Shown here: piece after piece, positions 29,146 to 34,500 of the stretch | Position numbering within the stretch: position 1 is the first letter of the stretch | Layout: each line of letters starts with the position of its first letter | Assembly (NCBI GenBank): GCA_026394555.1 | Contig: JAPKXZ010000003.1 | Coordinates: 1-45,905 of the forward strand | Direction of reading: 5' to 3' | DNA length: 45,905 nucleotides | DNA from: Methanothrix sp. | Lineage (GTDB): Archaea > Halobacteriota > Methanosarcinia > Methanotrichales > Methanotrichaceae | Notes under the pieces: model-generated | The model's input: the letters and a program-made list of their open reading frames with translations, nothing else | What the model was told of the DNA's origin: nothing | Databases searched by the model: none | Position numbers and translations under genes: made by a program

Positions 29146-31131
29146 TTACAGATCAATGCGTGGGATATTGTCTACGGATTCTGGATTGGCCAGAGCAGAC
29201 AGGTCTCCGGTCTCTTTGCCCAGGGCCTTGGCCTTGATGACACGGCGCATGATCTTGCCGGACCGGGTCTTGGGGACGTCCTTGACGAAGTAGACCTTGT
29301 CGGGGTAAGCGACTGGGCCCAGAACCTTCCGAACGTGGGTGGAGATCTCCTTGGCAAGCTCTGGAGACTCGGCAATGCCATCCTTGAGGATGATGAAGGC
29401 CACGATCTTCTCGCCCTTGACTTCATCGGGCTGGCCGACTACGGCTGCCTCGGCGACCTTGGGGTGAGAAACGGCGGCGGACTCGACCTCTGCGTTGGAG
29501 ATTCTGTGTCCGGCTACCTTCAGCACATCATCGATTCTGCCCTGGATCCACCAGTAGCCATCCTTATCGCGGGTGGCCTTGTCTCCAGCCAGGTATGTGC
29601 CGGGCTTGACCTGCCAGTACATATCCCAGTACTCCTTCTGGTACCTGACGGTATCCCTGAAGAAGGCCCTGAGCATAGACGGCCAGGGGGTCTTCGAAAC
29701 GATGTTGCCGCCGTAGCCGAGTGGCACGGAGTTGGCTTCCTCGTCGAAGATATCGATGTTGAATCCGGGCAATGGGAAGCATACGGAGCCGGGCTTCTCG
29801 GGTGTCATAACCAGTGGGGCGATAAGGTGGCATCCGGTCTCAGTCTGCCACCAGGTATCAATGATGGGTGCCTGGTCGGCGCCGATGTTCTTCCTGTACC
29901 ACATATAGGCTTCAGGGTTGAGGGGCTCGCCCACAGATGCCAGAATTCTGACGCTGGACAGATCGTACTTCTTGACGAATGCCTCGCCGGTCTTCATGAA
30001 CATGCGGATAGCGGTGGGTGCTGTGTAGAATACAGAGACGCCGTACTGCTCAATGATAGACCACCAGCGGCCCAGATCGGGGAAGTCGGGAGATCCCTCG
30101 TAGAGGATGATGGAAGCGCCCAAGCAGAGCGGGCCGTATACTACGTAGCTGTGACCGGTGATCCAGCCGCAGTCTGCGGTGCACCAGAAGACATCATCGT
30201 TATGAACATCCATCACCCAGGCGGTTGTCTGGGCTGGAGTTACTGCGAATCCGCCGTGGGCATGCTCAATACCCTTGGGCTTGCCGGTTGTGCCGGATGT
30301 GTAGAGAATGAACAGCCTGTCCTCTGGGTCAAGCGGGAGGGTCTCGCACTGGGCGGACTGGCCGGCTACGAAATCATCATAGAAGACATCGCGTCCTTCT
30401 GTCATGGGTACGGTAACGCCGGTTCTCTTGACTACTACTACCTTCGTGACAGATGGTGCATTCTTGAGAGCTTCATCTACGTTGGGCTTGAGGGGCAGGG
30501 GCTTTCCGCGCCTGTAGAATCCATCGGATGTAACGACGACCTTGGCCTCGGCATCGTTGACCCTGCTGGCCAGGCCGCCTGAGGAGAATCCGGAGAACAC
30601 TAGTGTGTGAATAGCTCCGATCTTGGCGCATGCCAGCATAGTGATGGGCTGCTCGGGAATCATGGGCAGGTATGTGACAACTCGGTCTCCCTTACCGACA
30701 CCAACGCTCTTGAGGGCATTGGCCATCTTGTTGACCTCTCGGTAGAGCTCATAGTAGGTGATGGTCCTGGTGTCGCCCAAGGGCTCGCCAATGAAGTAGT
30801 AGGCAACCTTGTTCCTGTTTGCGGACTTGGCATGCCTGTCCACGGCGTTGTAGGCCACGTTGATCTTGCCGCCGGTGAACCACTTGTAGTAAGGCTTGCC
30901 GGATTCATCAAGAACCTGGGTGTAGGGCTCATACCAATCAGCATAGGTCTTGGCCATCTCATCCCAGAAATCAATGTAATTATCTGAGCACCACTTGCGC
31001 ATCTCGGTCTCAGTCTTGAAGCCCTTCTTCTTCATCCACTGATATGCGTTGGAGTGCTCAACTATCGATTTCGGGGTGTTGAAAATCCTAGTCTCTTCCT
31101 GCAGAGAAGACGTTTTCGCTGTGTCAGCCAA
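29146..31131 (-). CDS. acs: Acetyl-CoA synthetase (AMP-forming), copy 1
   Basis: 661 aa from the TTG at 31131. Alignment of the three acs leaders puts GGAGGT seven bases before this codon; the ATG at 31137 would abut the site. It activates acetate with ATP to acetyl-CoA, the entry step of aceticlastic methanogenesis in Methanothrix. Motifs: [18 protein letters not shown] (phosphate loop), DTWWQTETG (acetate-pocket Trp), [20 protein letters not shown] (hinge), and [10 protein letters not shown] with the catalytic, acetylatable Lys. All are intact, and length is normal. Followed by an oligo-T terminator. Confidence 0.97.
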
Positions 31132-31145
31132 TTTCATACCTCCAT

Positions 31146-31297
31146 ATGATCAAGTGTTTCCCCTTCTAGTGTCAGGGCCTATTTGTGTAGAATCATTGCT
31201 TGTACCTCTCTTTTGCCTTTGCCCTGACCACCACCCGACAGAACGCGGGAAGGTTTTGGGAAACATCGGCTCAAAACCTACTTGATCATTTATAAAG
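31146..31297 (-). promoter_or_regulatory. Promoter and structured leader of acs copy 1
   Basis: A TATA box CTTTATAA (31290-31297) is preceded by the palindrome TATCGCGATA (31299-31308). Between it and the Shine-Dalgarno site are perfect inverted repeats: outer 31280-31289 with 31146-31155 (10 bp); 31272-31279 with 31251-31258 (8 bp); 31246-31249 with 31234-31237 (4 bp); 31221-31228 with 31171-31178 (8 bp). The loop of the second stem (31258-31264) can also pair with 31156-31162, a pseudoknot or alternative stem. If transcription starts near 31266, as the TATA box predicts, the outer 5' arms would not be in the RNA and the alternative pairing would close the leader. Confidence 0.5.
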
Positions 31298-31516
31298 TTA
31301 TCGCGATAAAAATCATAACGATCTTTCATCATAATGATTTTTCAATAATAATATCGATTAAAGCAAATAATTATGCATGTTGTAACCTTTGACTATTTTA
31401 TTCACTAATTTTAGTGATTAACTATAACTTAGAAATCCAGCGGCAAGAATGGTGGCAACTATGCAATAATGAAGCAGGAACACGCGAAACAAGAAAAAAA
31501 GAAAGGATATTTCCGC

Positions 31517-32024
31517 TCACTTGATGAGCGGAATGGCATCGACGGACTCGGGGGTGGCCAGAGCGGAGATGTCGCATGTGGAATTGCCCAGAGACTTGGC
31601 CTTGATGACGCGGCGCATGATCTTGCCGGACCTGGGTCTTGGGCACATCGTTCACGAAGTATAGACCGACTCTGGATAAGCCACGGGACTCAGGACAGTG
31701 CGCACGTGCTTGGACAGCTCCTTGTCGAGACCCGCAGTGGCTTCAATTCCGGTCTTGAGAATGACGAAGGCCACGATTACCTCATCCTTGACCTCATCGG
31801 GCTTGCCGATGACTGCAGCCTCGGCGACCTTGGGATGAGATACCAGGGCGCTATCCCAGTATTCCTCCTGGTACCTAACCGTGTCTTTGATGAAATTCTG
31901 GCCGGTCCAGGCACGCATCTCGCGCTCGGTCTTTGACATTAGAATTCTCAACTAGCTCCTTGGGCGGCTTGAATACTCTCGTCTCCTCATAAAGAGCAGA
32001 CGTTGTTGATTTTTGCTCAGCCAA
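31517..32024 (-). pseudogene. acs: Internally deleted, frameshifted acs pseudogene (copy 2)
   Basis: On the minus strand the acs start (TTG at 32024, GGAGGT upstream) reads [17 protein letters not shown] and on to KELVENSN. It then jumps to KTEREMRA, then to [13 protein letters not shown], then to [20 protein letters not shown] and the end of the protein. About 1.5 kb of the roughly 2-kb gene is missing in at least two deletions. Two small insertions (in GTCTATACTTC and in ACCCAGGTCC) break the frame before the C-terminal RSGKIMRR. Not functional as an enzyme; the leader and promoter in front of it are kept. An oligo-T-rich stretch at 31491-31505 follows. Confidence 0.9.
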
Positions 32025-34410: not shown

Positions 34411-34500
34411 TCTAAAACCCACTCAATCTGCTTTTTGTAAGCAAGTTTGCAAATATGGGGCTCCCTCTATATTTGGAGTGGGTCTTAGATGCATTATAAG
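34411..34500 (-). promoter_or_regulatory. Promoter and structured leader of acs copy 3
   Basis: TATA-like CTTATAAT at 34493-34500. A 14-bp stem pairs 34476-34489 with 34411-34424 (one G-U pair), ending 15 bases before the Shine-Dalgarno site. Inside, CAAATAT pairs with ATATTTG, GCAA with TTGC and GCTT with AAGC. The G-U pair hints at selection on RNA rather than on a DNA operator. The 5' arm lies very close to the TATA box, so the start site must be mapped before an RNA fold is accepted. Confidence 0.5.

Follow-up and report, generated by a model that had tools for sequence, protein, structure and literature searches.

Methanothrix is a major acetate-consuming producer of methane, and the locus considered here, on a 45,905-nucleotide stretch of DNA from Methanothrix sp. 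(the window), raises the question of whether the leader of its first acetyl-CoA synthetase gene (acs copy 1) is a regulatory RNA and, if so, of what kind. A sequence-only reading had found four perfect inverted repeats of 10, 8, 4 and 8 bp between the TATA box and the start codon, and had proposed a riboswitch-like leader with mutually exclusive folds next to the ribosome-binding site. Comparison with relatives upholds one part of that interpretation, an RNA structure under selection close to the ribosome site; it does not uphold the riboswitch, the exclusive folds or a restriction of the structure to acs copy 1.

The features of the locus are collected in the table. The exact TATA box occurs in 25 of the 29 copy-1 leaders. 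Transcription is predicted to start near 31266; amongst copy-1-type leaders with a TATA box (group A, see below) long-range pairing sets in at TATA+32, which provides a consistent basis for this assignment, and in Methanolobus psychrophilus the TATA box is reported to lie about 19-22 nt from the transcription start (PMC5378194). Translation probably begins at the TTG and not at the ATG at 31137, because three relatives (L009, L019 and L028) lose the ATG (31137-31135) and keep the TTG.

Features of the acs leaders in the window, with positions counted from its first nucleotide.
Feature	Position	Strand	Basis or remark
acs copy 1, acetate--CoA ligase	29146..31137	minus	ORF and NCBIfam TIGR02188, 859.8 bits (cut-off 724.95)
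BRE region TATCGCGATAAC	just upstream of the acs copy-1 TATA box	minus	
TATA box TTTATAAA, acs copy-1 promoter	31289..31296	minus	invariant in 14/14 leaders of alignment A3
Predicted transcription start, ~31266	31263..31269	minus	TATA spacing, 26 nt from TATA centre
Outer stem, 10 bp perfect repeat	31289-31280/31155-31146	minus	
AGGTTTTG/CAAAACCT hairpin, 8 bp perfect repeat	31279-31272/31258-31251	minus	
P1 5' arm UGUUUCCC	31258..31265	minus	at predicted mRNA 5' end
CCCG/CGGG pair, 4 bp	31249-31246/31237-31234	minus	read from sequence
P2, predicted small hairpin inside P1 (ACC..CCCG/CGGG..GGU)	31230..31254	minus	
P3, predicted hairpin inside P1, arms GTCAGGGC/GCCCTGAC, 8 bp (31228-31221/31178-31171)	31171..31228	minus	
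P1 3' arm GGGAAACA	31155..31162	minus	paired with P1 5' arm
Shine-Dalgarno GGAGG, outside P1	31139..31143	minus	invariant in A3
Start codon TTG of acs copy 1 (probable)	31129..31131	minus	TTG retained where upstream ATG lost
acs copy 2, 5'-proximal 14-bp closing helix TCTAAGACCCACTC (34489-34476) / GAGTGGGTTTTAGA (34424-34411)	34411..34489	minus	predicted fold

The four repeats are present on the minus strand and exceed chance expectation. In dinucleotide-preserving shuffles of 31300-31138 a perfect repeat of at least 10 bp arose in 4 of 1000, and four repeats of at least 8 bp in 0 of 1000. Less striking than the repeats is the folding energy of the leader (-48.3 kcal/mol, z -1.6), which 16 of 200 shuffles equalled. 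The 8 bp of complementarity claimed between the loop TGTTTCCC (31265-31258) and the segment at 31162-31155 was also confirmed; the helix that these two segments form is termed P1. For the outer 10-bp stem and the AGGTTTTG hairpin alike, the 5' arm falls within the core promoter, between the TATA box and the predicted start, and is therefore probably untranscribed. Amongst 14 in-genus and near leaders aligned with their promoters (alignment A3), the number of pairs retained is 5 to 10 of 10 in the outer stem, 3 to 8 of 8 in the AGGTTTTG hairpin and 7 or 8 of 8 in P1. No compensatory (both-side) change was found in the outer stem or the AGGTTTTG hairpin in these relatives, and neither beats a tree-aware null made by drawing the reconstructed changes anew over the tree (P = 0.16 and P = 0.24, respectively). 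Given this uncompensated decay and the location of their arms in the promoter, both were rejected as RNA helices. The mutually exclusive folds lose their support with them, since the competing hairpin and the outer stem both need the promoter-located 5' arms.

The pairing that is conserved is P1, which the sequence-only reading had treated as an alternative closing stem. Having been named from a single sequence, P1 was fixed ahead of the test on a wider set of leaders. From the 29 copy-1 leaders four without a TATA box were excluded, together with L127, in which the interior is shortened, and L069, whose leader is the same as that of L068; with L016 added, 24 leaders from several genera remained (alignment A2). 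P1 is paired in 95.3% of cells in this alignment, with 0 of 500 shuffles as good; the tree-aware null gives 82.1%, and 0 of 5000 simulations reached the observed value. Changes on both sides of a pair were found in 8 cells, compared with 3.0 under the tree-aware null (P = 0.017), so that compensation, absent from the outer stem and the AGGTTTTG hairpin, is seen in P1. RNAalifold retained eight pairs on the same alignment, every one of them in P1. The 14 in-genus leaders alone hold too few changes for significance (tree-aware P 0.07-0.08), and the window's own leader is unremarkable in isolation (5'-duplex z -1.2, P 0.14). Four of the 29 copy-1 homologues (L062, L063, L064 and L132) have another promoter or upstream region and no such leader, and are perhaps moved or newly regulated acs copies.

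The manner in which P1 changes identifies it as RNA rather than a DNA site. In the four columns of the 3' arm that stand opposite U, nine of nine reconstructed changes from A are A>G, yielding G-U pairs; elsewhere in the leader A>G accounts for 67 of 156 reconstructed changes from A. Amongst the leaders that start with GTTTCC (n = 38) the hexamer GGRRRC is in place in 34, as GGAAAC in 15 and in G-U forms in 19. Changes of this type spoil a symmetric DNA operator but not an RNA helix, and they count against the idea that the repeats, notably TGATCAAGT..ACTTGATCA, bind a regulator such as FilR1 and so bridge promoter and leader. That idea can draw on the promoter arm ATGATC, which is invariant in 14 of 14 leaders, and on the reported binding of FilR1 to the acs1 and acs4 promoters of M. 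harundinacea (PMC3991700). The downstream arm of the 10-bp repeat is, however, lost in most relatives, such that the two arms are not conserved together, and we regard an operator of this kind as improbable. More likely operators are two palindromes resembling ATCATTATGAT that precede the acs TATA box (31338-31328 and 31322-31312, minus strand), with similar motifs in relatives. They are probably regulator sites; that they are FilR1 sites is a guess. Acetate or quorum control would act on the promoter, and is better sought there than in the leader.

Judged by its evolution amongst these leaders, P1 exists as an RNA helix with arms anchored to the promoter and to the ribosome site and an interior that is largely free to change. 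GTTTCC, the 5' arm, lies 31-34 nt from the start of the TATA box in 36 of the 38 leaders that have it, where the mRNA is predicted to start. The 3' arm (GGRRRC) is about a dozen nucleotides before the Shine-Dalgarno sequence and, in the 34 leaders counted, has its end some 23-40 nt upstream of the assigned start codon, although in groups B and C the start codon was assigned from a protein alignment and may be off by some codons. The 5' arm stays anchored to the TATA box over arm-to-arm spacings of 17 to 156 nt, with an interior that varies between about 10 and 150 nt. In two paralogues (L089:1980 and L096:3108) the interior has almost been deleted, with the spacing shrunk to 17 nt and P1 retained; homologous copies in the same genus keep a long interior. 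The interior of L127, from a fragmented assembly, is likewise shortened. The covariation, together with the retention of P1 where the interior is deleted, places selection on the P1 pairing and not on the interior sequence.

Two hairpins are predicted inside P1. Over 14 leaders P2 is paired in 85% of cells, not above the null (tree-aware P = 0.11), and P3 in 83%, with four pairs changed on both sides (tree-aware P = 0.29). The three-helix model P1-P2-P3 has five pairs with both-side changes, a level reached in 1 of 500 plain shuffles. P3 is plausible but unproven, and both hairpins are retained as predictions only.

A structured leader of about 140 nt ahead of a metabolic gene, a predicted three-helix layout and several interior positions conserved within the genus would also suit a riboswitch that binds acetate, acetyl-CoA, AMP or CoA and governs acs translation through mutually exclusive folds. 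We nevertheless consider this very improbable. Across genera the interior shows no conservation, P1 alone persists in the alignment of 24 leaders, and the near-deletion of the interior in two paralogues leaves the helix in place. The competing folds would require arms that are predicted to be untranscribed and that show no compensation, and the mcrB and mtrE leaders (see below) have the same general design. The covariance model R1 matches acs copy 1 only, hence there is no regulon: in 50 genomes of the family all R1 matches below E 0.001 are acs leaders. Three weaker matches that were read (L171, L172 and L173) bear no resemblance to the acs leader. Rfam gave no match at the gathering threshold in the whole window and none at E up to 1 in 31100-31350. 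No run of U such as accompanies the terminator hairpin of an attenuator was seen when 31266-31131 was read by eye.

The structure is not specific to acs copy 1, since a closing helix near the 5' end is found in other acs paralogues as well. A leader DNA search at E up to 1 gave matches in 49 of 60 genomes, many of them by chance, the strong ones being acs leaders of the family; copy-1 leaders are retained across the family. A protein search located acs in 47 of 50 family genomes, and 140 acs starts were extracted and sorted into groups A (copy-1 type with a TATA box; 25), B (45), C (37), D (25) and others (8). Averaged over each group, the probability of pairing with the segment that precedes the start codon goes up at about TATA+29 to +33 for A, B and C; for D the rise comes closer to +39. 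In virtual RNA, group A promoters show pairing of 0.3-0.57 upstream of the predicted start as well. Compared with 29 control leaders, the acs leaders of groups A-C form stronger duplexes at their 5' ends (Mann-Whitney P = 2e-6); the control is a weak one in that its leaders were picked by a TATA-to-SD pattern and include chance matches. Several group C leaders are without a 5'-terminal helix (e.g. L077:7391, L097:724 and L098:797, z at or above -0.1). The leader of acs copy 2 in the window has a fold z of -4.2 and a closing helix that parallels that of copy 1.

Between copies 1 and 2 lies a degraded third acs copy (31523-32024, minus strand, with a leader extending to about 32217), in which residues 1 to ~57 are joined to 490-659, the middle is lost and the frames are shifted; its group-B leader survives, as does the 5' helix, with a single mismatch. 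The leaders of group D, which belong to the most distant acs paralogue (L104-L125 and others), carry another hairpin, AAGGCATTTG..CAAATGCCTT, which also occurs in changed-but-paired forms. A common promoter and leader start, TTTATAAA(T/C)GAAAAGTGC(A/G)TC.., was observed in four genomes (L144, L145, L161 and L162).

Our preferred explanation, to which we assign a probability of about 0.55, is that the acs copy-1 leader is a 5'-terminal mRNA clasp that protects the 5' end and keeps the ribosome site open, a constitutive element for stability and translation rather than a ligand switch. The anatomy of the clasp is well supported; its function we infer. Of the two arms of P1, the first begins a few nucleotides at most from the predicted 5' end and the second precedes the Shine-Dalgarno sequence; the leader would fold as a closed domain that leaves the ribosome site outside. 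P1 would then deny single-stranded 5' ends to 5'-dependent decay and keep the ribosome site unpaired, and the mRNA of a very abundant enzyme would thereby be long-lived and well translated. A gene for an RNase J-family protein lies in the same genome; it matches TIGR00649 with 461 bits, and the match is reported to contain one in-frame TAG. In predicted folds the gain in openness of the Shine-Dalgarno sequence is weak (0.52 compared with 0.37 with shuffled upstream sequence; higher in 16 of 28 leaders, P = 0.02). Alternatively, P1 might exert translational control, its opening and closing, or the pairing of an interior CUUCC/CUCC with the Shine-Dalgarno sequence, setting acs output in response to temperature, a protein or a small RNA. 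The 3' arm is near the Shine-Dalgarno sequence in the counted cases, and in many leaders P1 is followed by CUCC-like stretches. Such control is nonetheless unlikely: the Shine-Dalgarno sequence is, on average, more open in the predicted folds than with shuffled upstream sequence, and the CUCC stretches pair inside the clasp in leaders read by eye (e.g. L084, L091 and L061).

The protective clasp gains from comparison with other genes of the pathway, for which 30 mcr and 30 mtr loci were considered (the TATA box was unrecognised in 5 of 30 for mcrB and 3 of 30 for mtrE). Across the family, mcrB leaders begin with a helix at TATA+30; they also contain two apical helices that carry a conserved bulge. 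In alignment A5, comprising 20 of the 26 distinct mcrB leaders, 96.4% of cells are paired and 16 are changed on both sides, with 0 of 500 shuffles as good; the apical helices taken jointly give tree-aware P values of 0.0023 (cells paired) and 0.0007 (both-side changes). The R2 model of the mcr leader, run on 119 genomes of the class, matches 41 of them, all within the family, with E values of 1e-11 or lower; the two weak matches outside it that were read (G045 and G053) fall inside a coding frame and were discarded. No Rfam match was obtained for the mcrB leader in the four loci searched. Throughout the family the mcrB leader (e.g. L201; G000:C48:30814-30946, minus strand) is a structured RNA under strong conservation, in which the helices covary and the conserved bulge reads (T)CGCT. 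The mcrB leader is a better structured-RNA candidate than that of acs.

The mtrE leaders (L205-L234) have a short hairpin, e.g. GCCAAATTT..ATTTGGC, near the predicted transcription start. Chaperonin leaders, by eye, are short and show no such 5' element, and PF18537, tried as an anchor for cdhA, gave no match in 31 genomes. That the design is not confined to acs argues for a general function in mRNA. It is conceivable, though we would stop short of calling it probable, that the central methane-pathway mRNAs of the Methanothrix family (several acs paralogues, mcrB and mtrE) share a 5'-terminal clasp that runs from the transcription start to shortly before the ribosome site and is built from unrelated sequences in each gene. 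They would then form a post-transcriptional stability set suited to life at the energy limit, with the mcr bulge as a dock for a protein or ligand.

M. harundinacea has no genetic system, according to the FilR1 paper (PMC3991700), which leaves sequence evolution as one of a small number of routes to its gene regulation. The helix set between promoter and ribosome site, supported by covariation, gives a key enzyme a post-transcriptional element that is precise and testable, and it shifts the focus from metabolite sensing to mRNA stability. If the design shared with mcrB and mtrE holds, it would provide a way into the question of how methanogens that grow slowly maintain a few mRNAs at high abundance. 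A search of the open-licence full-text literature found no paper on acs or mcr leader structure in Methanothrix.

The acs leader may be set beside four known systems. With riboswitches it shares a structured leader ahead of a metabolic gene, but it is without a conserved core, a regulon or a supported competing fold. The cdh operon of Methanosarcina likewise has a long leader on an acetate-pathway gene. In E. coli, a 5'-terminal stem-loop stabilizes the ompA mRNA. Roadblocks at the 5' end are reported to stabilize Bacillus mRNAs (PMC3997798), and the acs leader resembles these bacterial stabilizers in having, outside the coding region, a helix at the predicted 5' end, an unimportant interior and RNase J-type decay in the same cell. 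It differs from them in that the acs helix closes a domain of up to about 150 nt, has its 3' arm tied to the ribosome site and is archaeal; its stability role we infer. Closest in setting are the mtaA and mtaC 5' UTRs of methanogens, long leaders on key methanogenesis mRNAs which, as reported for a cold-adaptive methanogen, contribute to mta mRNA stability (cited in PMC5378194). No sequence or structure common to the mta and acs leaders is shown, whereas the acs leader has one helix that is pinned by comparison.
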